Shown: piece after piece, positions 17,514 to 42,747 of the stretch | How positions within the stretch are numbered: the stretch's first letter is position 1 | Layout: each line of letters begins with the position of its first letter | Notes under the pieces: generated by a model | Told to the model about the DNA's origin: nothing | Databases searched by the model: none | The model's input: only the letters and a program-made list of their open reading frames with translations | Program-made: the position numbers and the translations under genes | Source: Alphaproteobacteria bacterium | Lineage (GTDB): Bacteria; Pseudomonadota; Alphaproteobacteria; Rhodospirillales; Rhodospirillaceae | Length of the DNA stretch: 64,000 nucleotides | Reading direction: 5' to 3' | NCBI GenBank assembly: GCA_003246625.1 | Contig: QJZR01000012.1 | Coordinates: 310,001-374,000, forward strand

Positions 17514-17579
17514 CGTCTTCACTCCGTCGCCGTCCGGCGGGAAGCACCGCCATGCCCGGCATCATGGACTCCCGGAAAT

Positions 17580-38460: not shown

Positions 38461-38540
38461 GGCTATAACTGCCGAGTTCTCAAACCGTCCGAGCCTCCAC
38501 CCGAAAGAGTGGGCCGGATGGCCCAGCCAGGCCGAGGTCA

Positions 38541-39209
38541 GTGGATTTCCTTTTAAACTCCCTGAACATGTCGTTGGAGGAGCTTCTCCAGTCCTGGGGA
38601 TACGTGGCGATCCTCATCGGCACGTTCCTGGAAGGCGAAACCATCGTCATCTTCGCGGGGGTCTTCGCCTCGCAGGGGATGATGTCCCTGCCCCTGGTGT
38701 TCTGCACCGCCTTGTTCGGCACCTTCTTCGGCGACCAAGTGTACTTCACCATCGGCAAGCGCTGGGGCGCGAAGCTGCTCTATTCCCACCCGGCGATGAA
38801 GCGCAAGACGCGGTCGGTGTTCCGCCTGCTCAAAAGGTACGAAACCGGCTTCATCCTGTCCTTCCGCTTCATCTATGGCCTGCGCAACGTCAGCCCCTTC
38901 GTCATCGGCATGAACGGCATCGGCCACCCGCGTTTCGCCGCCTTGAACTTCATCGCCGCCTTCGCCTGGGCGACGATCTTCGCGGGCGGCGGATACCTGC
39001 TGGGGAAGACGCTGGAAAGCTTCATCGGCAAGCTGCACGGGGTGATCCTGCTGGTCATCCTGGGGATCGTAGTCTTCTTCAGCGTGCTCAGCATCGTCAT
39101 CAACCGCCTGCGCGGCAACCGCGATCCCCGTATCCAGCGGCTGAAGCGGATGCAGGCCTTCCGCAAGGAAGCCCGCGAACGCACCGCCGCGCAGACCATG
39201 GAAAAATAA
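38541..39209 (+). CDS. DedA-family membrane protein
   Basis: The 222-residue protein has about five hydrophobic segments and the DedA motifs ILIGTFLEGETIVIFAGVFA, GDQVYFTIGKRWG and the FRFIYGLRNVSPFVIGMNGI loop. DedA proteins move lipids across the membrane and need the proton motive force. GTG 38541 has GAGG upstream; an in-frame ATG at 38568 lacks a ribosome site. Confidence 0.85.
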   Translation: MDFLLNSLNMSLEELLQSWGYVAILIGTFLEGETIVIFAGVFASQGMMSLPLVFCTALFGTFFGDQVYFTIGKRWGAKLLYSHPAMKRKTRSVFRLLKRYETGFILSFRFIYGLRNVSPFVIGMNGIGHPRFAALNFIAAFAWATIFAGGGYLLGKTLESFIGKLHGVILLVILGIVVFFSVLSIVINRLRGNRDPRIQRLKRMQAFRKEARERTAAQTMEK

Positions 39210-39387
39210 GCCGCGCGCGGGCTTTTCCCCGCCGATTAGGCTTCACAACCTCTACCCGATATGATACCAAGTGCGCCCGAACGCCACAGAAGCCCAACCT
39301 AACCGGCGGCTTCGGCGGGAAAGGTTGCATTGGTGAAAACCGGCAGGCAGCGAGCATATCGCGCCGCCCCCAACGGAGGATCGTCAG

Positions 39388-39594
39388 ATAGTTCACGTTC
39401 TCGTTCGCGACAATAACGTCGACCAGGCCCTGAAGGCGCTCAAGAAGAAGATGCAGCGCGAGGGTGTTTTCCGTGAGATGAAGCTGCGCCGGAACTTCGA
39501 AAAGCCGTCCGAGCGCAAGGCCCGCGAGACCGCCGAAGCGGTGCGTCGCGCCCGCAAGCTGGAACGCAAGCGCCTGGAACGCGAAGGCTTCTAG
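39388..39594 (+). CDS. rpsU: 30S ribosomal protein S21 with an ATA start codon
   Basis: Translation gives a complete 68-residue S21 ([20 protein letters not shown], then [17 protein letters not shown], ending KRLEREGF). In frame there is no ATG, GTG or TTG before the conserved core; an in-frame TGA lies upstream. The codon that fits is ATA at 39388, with GGAGGA 7 bases upstream; GTT at 39391 is the only other candidate at the family N-terminus. S21 sits near the 3' end of 16S rRNA and helps initiation. If real, the weak start would place S21 under IF3-type control. Confidence 0.88.
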
Positions 39595-39617
39595 AGCCCG
39601 ACCTTCACCAATGCAAC

Positions 39618-39681
39618 GGCCCGACCGCCTTGGTCGGGCCCGTATTGTTTTGCCGAAAGGCCGCCCTCGGGCGGCTTTTTT
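39618..39681 (+). terminator. tandem terminators after rpsU
   Basis: A 9-bp stem GGCCCGACC/GGTCGGGCC (39618-39640) is followed by GCCGCC/GGCGGC (39660-39675) and six T residues. Two hairpins in series give efficient termination of a strong transcript. Confidence 0.88.
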
Positions 39682-39715
39682 CGTACCCGCCTTCCGCCAC
39701 CACGAAGCGGCCATG

Positions 39716-39747
39716 AAAAAGGGCGGCCCACCGGGGGCCGCCCTTTT
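39716..39747 (-). terminator. terminator of the pnt operon
   Basis: The 9-bp stem GGGCGGCCC/GGGCCGCCC with a short loop lies just beyond the pntB stop. Read on the minus strand it ends in five T residues (AAAAA on the plus strand at 39716-39720). It can also serve the plus strand. Confidence 0.85.
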
Positions 39748-39769
39748 CGGCGCGGAAAAGCGTCCGGCC

Positions 39770-41167
39770 TCAGCCGAGGGCCTGGACGATCTCTTCCGTC
39801 ATCTTCTTGGCGTCGCCGAACAGCATCATGGTGTTGTCGGCGAAGAACAGCGGGTTCTCGACGCCCGCGTAGCCCGACGCCATCGACCGCTTGACGAACA
39901 ACACCGTCTTAGCCTTGTCGACCTCAAGGATCGGCATGCCGAAGATCGGGCTGGAGGAATCGGTCTTCGCCGCCGGGTTGGTGACGTCGTTGGCGCCGAT
40001 CACGTAGACCACGTCGGCGGTGGAGAATTCGTGGTTGATCTCCTCCAACTCGAAGACCTCGTCGTAGGGGACGTTGGCCTCGGCCAGCAGCACGTTCATA
40101 TGGCCGGGCATGCGGCCCGCCACCGGATGAATGGCATAGCTGACGGTCACCCCTTCCTTCTTCAAGGTGTCGGCCATCTCGCGCAGGGCGTGCTGCGCCT
40201 GCGCCACCGCCATGCCGTAGCCGGGAACGATGATCACCTTCGAGGCGTTCTTCATGATGAAGGCGGCATCGTCGGCGGAGCCAGCCTTCACCGAACGGTC
40301 GCCCGCGACGGCACCGCCGCCGGCGGCGGCGTCATCGGCGCCGAAGCCGCCCAGGATGACGTTGAAGAACGAGCGGTTCATCCCCTTGCACATGATGTAG
40401 GAGAGAATCGCGCCCGACGCGCCGACCAGCGCGCCGGTAATGATCAACAGGCTGTTCGCCAGGGTGAAGCCGATGCCGCAGGCCGCCCAACCCGAGTACG
40501 AGTTGAGCATCGAGATCACCACCGGCATGTCGGCGCCGCCGATCGGGATGATCAAGAGGAAGCCGAGGGCGAAGGACAGCGCCATCAGCAGGAAGAACAG
40601 CGGCGCGCTTTCGCTAAGGGCGAAGGCGGCGATCAACAGCACCAGCAGGATGCCCAGGGCCAGGTTCAGCAGGTGCTGCCCGGGGAAGGAGACCGGCTTG
40701 CCGGAGATCAGGCCCTGCAACTTGGCGAAGGCGATCACCGAACCGGAGAAGGTAATCGCGCCGACCGCGGTGCCGAGCGACATTTCCACCAGGGACCCGG
40801 TGTGGATGTGTCCGGCGGCACCGATGCCATAGGATTCCGGCGCCAGGAAGGCGGCGGTGGCGACGAACACCGCGGCCAGGCCGACCAGGCTGTGGAAGGC
40901 CGCCACCAACTGCGGCAGGGCGGTCATCTGGATCTTCTTCGCGATCACCGCGCCCGCGGCGCCGCCGATGGCGATGCCGAGGACGATCCAGATGTAGTTG
41001 ACCACCACCGGCGAGGCCAGGGTGGTGAGAATGGCGATCGCCATGCCGGCGATGGCGAAGATGTTGCCCGTGCGCGCCGATTCCGGCGAGGACAGCCCCT
41101 TCAGCGCCATGATGAAACAGATGCCCGCGACGATGTAGGCGAGCATGGTCAGGCTTTCAGCATGCAT
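39770..41167 (-). CDS. pntB: NAD(P) transhydrogenase beta subunit PntB
   Basis: The 465-residue subunit has about nine TM helices, then the NADP-binding domain III ([48 protein letters not shown]). It is part of the proton-pumping transhydrogenase that makes NADPH from NADH. It ends the three-gene operon and is followed by a terminator. Confidence 0.95.
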
Positions 41168-41179
41168 GATCGTGCTCCC

Positions 41180-41590
41180 TTACTTCGTCTTTTTCTTGAA
41201 CATCGCCAGCATCCTCTGGGTGACGATGAAGCCGCCGAAGATGTTGACCGAGGCGAGGATCACCGCGAAGAAACCCATCAGCTGCGAGGCCGAGAATTTC
41301 GACGGCCCGGCGGCGATGAGGGCGCCGACGATGATCACCGAGGAAATCGCGTTGGTCACCGCCATCAGCGGCGAATGCAGGGCGGGGGTCACCCGCCAGA
41401 CGACGAAATAGCCGACGAAGATCGCCAGCACGAAAACCGTGAACAGGTACCAGAACGGCCCCACGCCCTCGGCCGCCGGAGCGGCCCCCGAGGTCGCCGC
41501 CTGTTCCGCCAGAAGGCGCGCGCCCGCGGCCATCTGGTTGGCGAGATCGGCCAGGCGTCCGGCCTGTTCCGCAACGATATCCGCAGCCAT
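41180..41590 (-). CDS. pntAB: NAD(P) transhydrogenase subunit alpha-2 (PntAB)
   Basis: The 136-residue protein is the small membrane part of the alpha chain, as found in Rhodospirillum-type enzymes. It has three or four TM segments, with the [20 protein letters not shown] motif. The start at 41590 overlaps the last base of pntAA (TGATG). The N-terminal extension rich in Ala is typical. Confidence 0.93.
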
Positions 41591-42747
41591 CACTTCCCTC
41601 CTTCCGCGGCGAGAACCGGGTGCACCAGCTTGCCGTCGCGGCAAACCAGGGTGCCCTGGACCAGTTCGTCCGTCAGGTTCGGCTTCAAGGTCTTGGTATC
41701 CTTGTCGACCATCGTCGACACGAAATTCCAGATGTTCTTGGCATAGAGCATCGAGGCGTCGGAGGCGATGCGCCCCGGCACGTTGGCGTGCCCCATCAGG
41801 GTGACGCCGTGTTTCGTCACCACCTTGCCGTATTCCGACAGCGGGCAGTTGCCGCCCATCTCGACCGCCAGGTCGACGATCACCGAACCCGGCTTCATCG
41901 ACTTCACCATCTCCTCGGTGACCAGAACCGGGGCGGGGCGGCCGGGGATCAGGGCGGTACAGATGATGATGTCGGCCTTGGCCGCCTGCTCGGCGGTGGC
42001 CTGGGCCTGCTTCTTCTTGTATTCGTCGCCCATTTCCTTGGCGTAACCGCCGGAGGTTTCGGCGTTCTTCATCGCCTCCTCGTCGACGACGACGAACTTG
42101 CCGCCGAGGGATTCCACCTGCTCCTTGGCGGCGGCGCGCACGTCGAAGGCATAGACCACGGCGCCCAGGCGCTTCGCGGTGGCGATCGCCTGCAAGCCGG
42201 CGACGCCGGCGCCCATCACCAGGACGCGGGCGGGAGGCACGGTGCCCGCGGCGGTCATCATCATCGGCAGCGCCCGGTTGAACTCGGCCGCCGCGTCGAT
42301 CACCGCCTTATAGCCCGCCAGATTGGATTGCGAGGACAGCACGTCCATGCTTTGCGCGCGGGAAATTCGCGGCATCAGCTCCATGGCGAAGGCGTCGACC
42401 CCCGCCGCCGCCAGCTTCTCCACGTACGGCTTGCTGGTCAGCGCCTGGATGATCGAGAACAGGACGGTGCCCTTTTTCATCTGGGCGATTTCGTCGGTGC
42501 CGTCCTCGGCGGACATCGGCCGCTGCACCTTGAACACCAGGTCGGCGTCCTTGTAGAGCGCCGCCGGGGTCTTGGCGATGGTGGCGCCCGCCGCGACATA
42601 GGCCTCGTCGGTGAAGCTGGACGCCAGACCGGCATCCTTTTCGATCACCACCTCGCACCCCAGGCCGACGAATTTCTTCACCGTGTCCGGCGAAGCCGCG
42701 ACGCGGGTTTCGAAGTCCCGCCGCTCCTTCGGTATTGCAATCTTCAT
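41590..42747 (-). CDS. pntAA: NAD(P) transhydrogenase subunit alpha-1 (PntAA)
   Basis: The 385-residue soluble subunit binds NAD(H). It begins [20 protein letters not shown] and shows [20 protein letters not shown], then a dinucleotide site [21 protein letters not shown] and [15 protein letters not shown]. It has no membrane segment, which confirms the split alpha subunit. It is the first gene of the operon. Confidence 0.95.

Follow-up and report, generated by a model that had tools for sequence, protein, structure and literature searches.

Background

Experimentally characterised non-canonical start codons are very few (PMC5472188). They are already known from infC, the gene of initiation factor IF3, which starts with ATT in Escherichia coli and with ATC in Streptomyces (PMC5472188), and for which an AUA start was detected by ribosome profiling in Staphylococcus aureus, where AUA and AUU reporters yield ~10-30% of AUG (PMC13009471). 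The non-canonical starts of infC and of Streptomyces sigR, the latter a GTC, are repressed by IF3 (PMC5472188), and in S. aureus the genes ccpN (AUA), cvfC1 (AUU) and citZ (AUA) combine such starts with a good Shine-Dalgarno (SD) sequence, those of ccpN and cvfC1 being reported as conserved among relatives (PMC13009471). A different kind of control at translation initiation has been described for rpsU, the gene of ribosomal protein bS21, in Flavobacterium johnsoniae, where it depends on an SD of exceptional strength together with occlusion of the anti-SD (PMC9976891).

Here, we compare these systems with the rpsU gene in the window, i.e. the whole stretch of 64,000 nucleotides that was analysed, which very probably starts with ATA. 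Judged by comparison among relatives, this gene has the sequence features of the infC class, namely a start other than AUG, GUG or UUG, conserved and preceded by an SD at start-like spacing, and it is like infC in having a start of the IF3-rejected class and a good SD at 6-8 nt. The infC product is IF3 itself, which closes the loop, whereas the product of rpsU is a ribosomal protein and any control would act in trans; further, the rpsU codon turns over between genera (CTG, TTG, ATA, ATC), unlike in the infC system. With sigR the gene shares being a non-infC gene with a non-canonical start, but control of sigR by IF3 is experimental and concerns another product in another phylum (PMC5472188), whereas for rpsU we infer it. 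The S. aureus starts, also with good SDs, were mapped by ribosome profiling and reporters, and none of the three genes named above encodes a ribosomal protein (PMC13009471); the rpsU start was identified by comparison. In contrast to the same gene in F. johnsoniae (PMC9976891), rpsU of the window has an ordinary-to-strong SD and an odd start codon.

A literature search, for which subscription papers were mostly outside reach, gave no report of a non-canonical rpsU start by title or start of abstract among the matches listed. Start codons rejected by IF3 are thus known as a kind, and what we did not find in print, and regard as new, is the retention of such a codon by a gene for a ribosomal protein, rpsU, which shares it with infC.

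The rpsU gene and its initiation site

An earlier note on this DNA had proposed a 68-residue S21 frame that has no canonical start codon upstream, is closed off by an in-frame TGA and carries GGAGGA 7 bases before ATA. Frame reading and the protein family matches bear this out for the window, in which the following features were recognised.

39388-39594, plus strand: rpsU coding sequence (bS21), 68 codons plus stop; frame reading, PF01165, TIGR00030
39388-39390, plus strand: putative ATA initiation codon, kept in 8/8 congeners; other relatives have CTG, TTG, ATC or ATG in this column
39334-39336, plus strand: TGA closing the rpsU frame upstream, in frame, 17 codons before ATA
39375-39380, plus strand: Shine-Dalgarno GGAGGA, computed pairing -9.5 kcal/mol, strong, not exceptional
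39260-39265, plus strand: possible -10 element TATGAT (TATGCT or TATGAT in congeners), tentative

The product matches PF01165 over positions 1-55 of 55 (E 2e-18, whole genome searched) and scores 67.8 bits in the TIGR00030 equivalog model (cut-off 28.95), so that the curated cut-off for bS21 is exceeded across the full domain; this is the only PF01165 match in the source genome, and the gene is the single rpsU of the window. The frame ends with TAG at 39592-39594. Between the upstream TGA and ATA there is no in-frame ATG, GTG or TTG in the window, and the first canonical codon inside the gene is an ATG at codon 22 (39451), within the conserved core. The distance from the final G of GGAGG to ATA is 8 nt. 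The pairing energies given here were computed with an anti-SD sequence that we presume to apply.

The gene is solitary, with neighbours at 38541-39209 and 39770-42747, which we take to be a DedA-type membrane protein gene and a convergent pntB-pntA transhydrogenase cluster, respectively. A promoter scan returned no site, and no -35 for the candidate -10 element, and within 38500-40500 no known Rfam leader reached its gathering score (best 23 bits against 45).

The start within the genus

The genus is represented by eight genomes, including the window's own, all of which read ATA GTT CAC GTT CTC GTT CGC GAC at the rpsU start. In each of them ATA GTT CAC is preceded by GGAGGAT[AC]GTCAG, with GGAGG-to-ATA spacing of 8; the sequence before ATA is GGAGGATAGTCAG in the genus and GGAGGATCGTCAG in the window, and further upstream of the conserved SD stretch the leader has mostly diverged. 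Codons 1-8 (39388-39411) are the same in all eight even at synonymous sites, while later codons vary.

This alignment, which the earlier note had named as a check, argues strongly for ATA as the start, together with the codons that relatives carry at the same column. A sequencing or assembly error of ATG or GTG, for which we found nothing in favour, can be ruled out and has a practically negligible probability, and ATA is likewise no product of chance, because all eight genus genomes carry it there. The absence of an upstream canonical codon applies to 5 of the 8 genus species, the window's own included, but does not extend to the other three: an in-frame ATG lies 18 codons upstream in G003 and G006, and TTG/GTG lie at -20/-19 in G005, and these codons are unconserved.

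Start codons of rpsU in relatives

Searching 73 genomes of the family identified S21 in 65, of which 64 were readable; G031 and one of two G086 copies were left out at contig ends. The rpsU starts are CTG in 38, TTG in 10, ATA in 8 and GTG in 8 genomes, and the GTG starts (8/64) sit one codon later than the column shared by CTG, TTG and ATA. In all 56 genomes with CTG, TTG or ATA, the start precedes a valine codon (GTT 53, GTC 2, GTA 1, GTG 0), whereas in the GTG-start genomes the valine codon itself is the start and is preceded by CAA (3), GTA (2), TCC (2) or CCG (1).

These patterns bear on a further reading, which places the start elsewhere: either at GTT, the codon after ATA, or at a canonical or near-cognate codon further upstream, with the protein then extended at its N-terminus. 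The SD-to-GTT distance of 11 in the window lies within the SD-to-GTG range (7-11 in 77 of the 87 GTG-start leaders), and 3 of the 8 congeners have the in-frame ATG or TTG/GTG mentioned above. Yet with GTT as the start the preceding codon would be unconstrained, whereas in 56/56 family genomes with a non-GTG valine codon it differs from ATG by a single base; the upstream canonical codons of G003, G005 and G006 are unconserved and either precede the hairpin described below and the SD or sit at its edge. The codon pattern and the lack of conservation thus disfavour both positions, and we consider this reading very unlikely.

Of 122 genomes with an S21 match that belong to the order but not to the family, 66 were read and gave GTG in 59, ATC in 6 and TTG in 1; ATC GTA CAG is found in 6/6 genomes read of one separate genus, g39 (L002, L227, L228, L237, L240, L245). 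A set of 149 distinct leaders, drawn from the sources up to that count and excluding later order-wide draws, comprises GTG 87, CTG 38, TTG 12, ATA 8, ATC 1 and ATG 3. GTG, CTG or TTG account for 137 of the 149, so that in the relatives sampled a weak rpsU start is no peculiarity of this one gene and ATG is seldom used. The three ATG leaders are from two metagenome assemblies (L044, L050) and from G095, where contig C38, a short one, carries a second, divergent rpsU (L200) that is possibly foreign or a contaminant. The CTG form also occurs in named organisms, namely Rhodospira trueperi (L032) and Pararhodospirillum oryzae (L033), within a set of named loci that consists of the best 80 of 539 and leans to close relatives. 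Over the stretch compared, L033 and G020, a member of the window's family, have identical leaders, and so do L032 and G070, which suggests that the window belongs to, or stands close to, the Rhodospirillaceae.

Control genes and history of the codon

As controls, we inspected the rpsL-rplQ region by eye in congeners G001 and G007, because no rplB match was obtained from the genome to which the window belongs, although it is rated 100% complete (2.69 Mb versus 2.2-4.0 Mb in congeners); this points to a gap or an absent stretch. In all 31 genes the expected start position holds a canonical codon, which is ATG except in rpsS (GTG) and rpsM (TTG), and rpoA can be read with ATG or a later GTG. The rpsM TTG and rpsS GTG were located in the two congeners at 17560 and 8788 of L223, and at 17615 of L224 (reverse complement).

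In an IF3 protein tree of 49 family genomes, those with an ATA rpsU form one branch (support 100/98), and the four rpsU start states require 5 changes against 19.6 with shuffled labels; the tree is one of convenience, IF3 itself being party to the hypothesis. The ATA start would accordingly have a single origin on this tree, and its retention in the eight genus species amounts to a single event. The GTG starts found outside the family point to GTG as the ancestral state, and we infer a probable order of change from GTG to CTG three bases upstream and then to ATA or TTG.

Start codons of infC and a possible link to IF3

The infC gene of the window's own genome (L177, G000 contig C13 near 217958) also has an ATA start, in frame behind GGGAGGCGATTC, and so do 7/7 congeners (L172, L176, L203-L207). 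Within the family, 50 of 70 infC matches were fetched and 48 genomes were readable (G069 and G010 being out at contig ends), with ATA in 43 and ATC in 5; elsewhere in the order, 11 genomes gave ATA in 9 and ATC in 2, and in g39 the start is ATA in 4/4 looked at (L274, L275, L277, L278). Codon 6 of infC is ATG in the window's genome; in congener G007 (L176) there is no ATG at codon 6, and ATA is therefore likely the infC start there. Computed SD pairing in the window's genome is -17.7 kcal/mol for infC versus -9.5 for rpsU.

The link to IF3 supply that the earlier note had drawn is strengthened in that infC of the same genome shares the ATA start. It is weakened in that infC is ATA also in 8/8 family genomes with a GTG-start rpsU; the start codon of rpsU does not follow that of infC, and the two traits merely coexist. 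The move of rpsU to ATA goes with no change in infC, which has ATA or ATC in 11/11 other genomes of the order as well. Because GTG, which IF3 tolerates, starts rpsU in 59/66 genomes outside the family, the shared constraint on rpsU may be weak initiation as such.

We therefore weighed two overlapping readings. The one we prefer, and hold to be rather likely, is that rpsU is throttled at a weak AUA start that is sensitive to IF3; that the IF3 level is the physiological regulator of rpsU is a narrower claim, which our analysis places at somewhat less than an even chance. The main rival is that AUA does no more than hold S21 synthesis at a constant low rate suited to ribosome assembly, with IF3 varying too little to regulate, and this is a serious possibility although clearly the less probable of the two. 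A fixed rate agrees with GTG, a weak but canonical codon, being the commonest start among the distinct leaders, and with infC being ATA alike in genomes with GTG, CTG and ATA starts of rpsU; moreover, a terminator-like hairpin lies directly 3' of rpsU in the genus, so translation may set the dosage. Against it, GTG would do for such a purpose, yet two genera adopted the IF3-rejected class (ATA and ATC), and CTG is used in 38/64 family genomes.

In the preferred reading, the AUA at a good distance behind GGAGG would be a genuine initiation codon at which initiation is slow and discriminated against by IF3, as at infC and sigR elsewhere. Synthesis of S21 would then be kept low and would fall at high levels of free IF3, and rise where IF3 is scarce in relation to 30S subunits. 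As infC has the same kind of start codon, IF3 and S21 could be adjusted by one signal.

Comparison with Flavobacterium-type autoregulation

Autoregulation in the style of Flavobacterium would mean that 30S subunits without bS21 prefer rpsU mRNA, which is compatible with the other readings. Such regulation by S21-free ribosomes was shown for rpsU in F. johnsoniae (PMC9976891), and S21 is described as late to join the 30S subunit and loosely bound (PMC10931766). The very strong SD of that system (below -13 kcal/mol) is absent here, the window's SD pairing being weaker at -9.5 kcal/mol. Moreover, among the congener genes compared, rplQ, rpsH, rpsN, rplB and rpsE have stronger SDs than rpsU. Occlusion of the anti-SD is not known from Alphaproteobacteria. 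We regard autoregulation of this style as improbable.

A Flavobacterium-type extended SD was also looked for across the genus and rejected, the eight congeners having -9.3 to -9.8 kcal/mol. In congener G001, SD pairing is stronger than -9.5 kcal/mol in 5 of the 20 genes tested, out of the 31 control genes.

Predicted RNA structure of the rpsU mRNA

Folding the aligned rpsU regions of the eight congeners with RNAalifold recovered, de novo, a hairpin upstream of the SD and a long helix between the 5' and 3' UTRs.

39342-39368, plus strand: hairpin just upstream of the SD (GGC.GGC.GCGA / UCGC GCC GCC); RNAalifold, 8 congeners
39324-39337, plus strand: 5' UTR arm of the long-range helix, 14/14 complementary to the 3' arm; 8-species alignment and single fold
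39604-39617, plus strand: 3' UTR arm of the long-range helix, adjoining the terminator-like hairpin
39618-39640, plus strand: intrinsic terminator-like hairpin GGCCCGACC..GGTCGGGCC; alignment fold and terminator scan, with 1.4 such sites expected by chance in the stretch

The hairpin has 10 pairs, of which 6 are invariant, 1 shows a two-sided change and 3 each lack pairing in a single row of the alignment; 96.3% of cells are paired. In the long helix, 8 of 12 consensus pairs are invariant, 1 has a one-sided and 3 have two-sided changes, and 97.9% of cells pair. For the structure as a whole, shuffles reached the covariation score in 1/500, the paired cells in 1/500, the two-sided pairs in 2/500 and the further pair types in 289/500 cases, figures that are to be read bearing in mind that the eight species are closely related and that the structure was derived from their own alignment. 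The best local 5'-3' UTR helix spans 11-15 bp and has the same position in 8/8 congeners, in each of which 0/40 mononucleotide shuffles were as good; measured as total duplex energy against dinucleotide shuffles, p 0.05 was reached in only 3/8. The window transcript itself folds into the helix (z -2.35). We conclude that a conserved 5'-3' UTR helix against the terminator is a supported structure that, as modelled, can form in the genus, with limited covariation.

Across the order, the duplex-energy test on 172 distinct leaders gave no support for such pairing, with p 0.05 in 3/8 ATA, 5/37 CTG, 2/12 TTG, 0/6 ATC, 0/3 ATG and 6/106 GTG rows, and we therefore claim the helix for this genus only. 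In genus g7, where rpsU starts with CTG, another 5'-3' UTR complementarity was seen by eye in four species (L014, L015, L146, L147), CACACACTCTG / AGAGTGTGTG, which differs slightly between species; its 3' arm directly precedes a terminator-like hairpin and its 5' arm directly precedes the SD.

A comparable arrangement is that of S. aureus icaR, whose 5' and 3' UTRs are likewise complementary, but there the pairing covers the SD region (PMC3868564), whereas in rpsU 37 nt separate the 5' arm from the SD downstream of it and the helix adjoins the terminator. Masking of the SD by the 5'-3' helix was accordingly not found in the window (5' arm 39324-39337, SD 39375-39380). A local hairpin hiding both the rpsU SD and the start is predicted, but it is no stabler than shuffles, with z of +0.66 and +1.40 for two short stretches and -1.49, +0.18 and +0.29 for three longer ones, and was rejected.

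An extended reading joins these elements into a two-gene circuit, in which IF3 would sense its own abundance via the AUA/AUC starts of rpsU and infC and keep S21 and IF3 in step, with the rpsU mRNA held in a closed loop by the 5'-3' UTR pairing against the terminator. Such a loop could return ribosomes to the weak start or shield the short transcript. We regard the circuit as a whole as doubtful.

Implications

The best reading of the comparative data is that rpsU is held on a weak start codon, which in this genus is of the class that IF3 rejects elsewhere. The genus-wide ATA, the CTG of most family genomes that were read and the ATC of a second genus together suggest that weak rpsU initiation is selected. 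If so, IF3 may act on ribosome composition besides acting on itself. Further, the annotation of rpsU starts in Rhodospirillaceae-like bacteria may err where only ATG, GTG and TTG are allowed.
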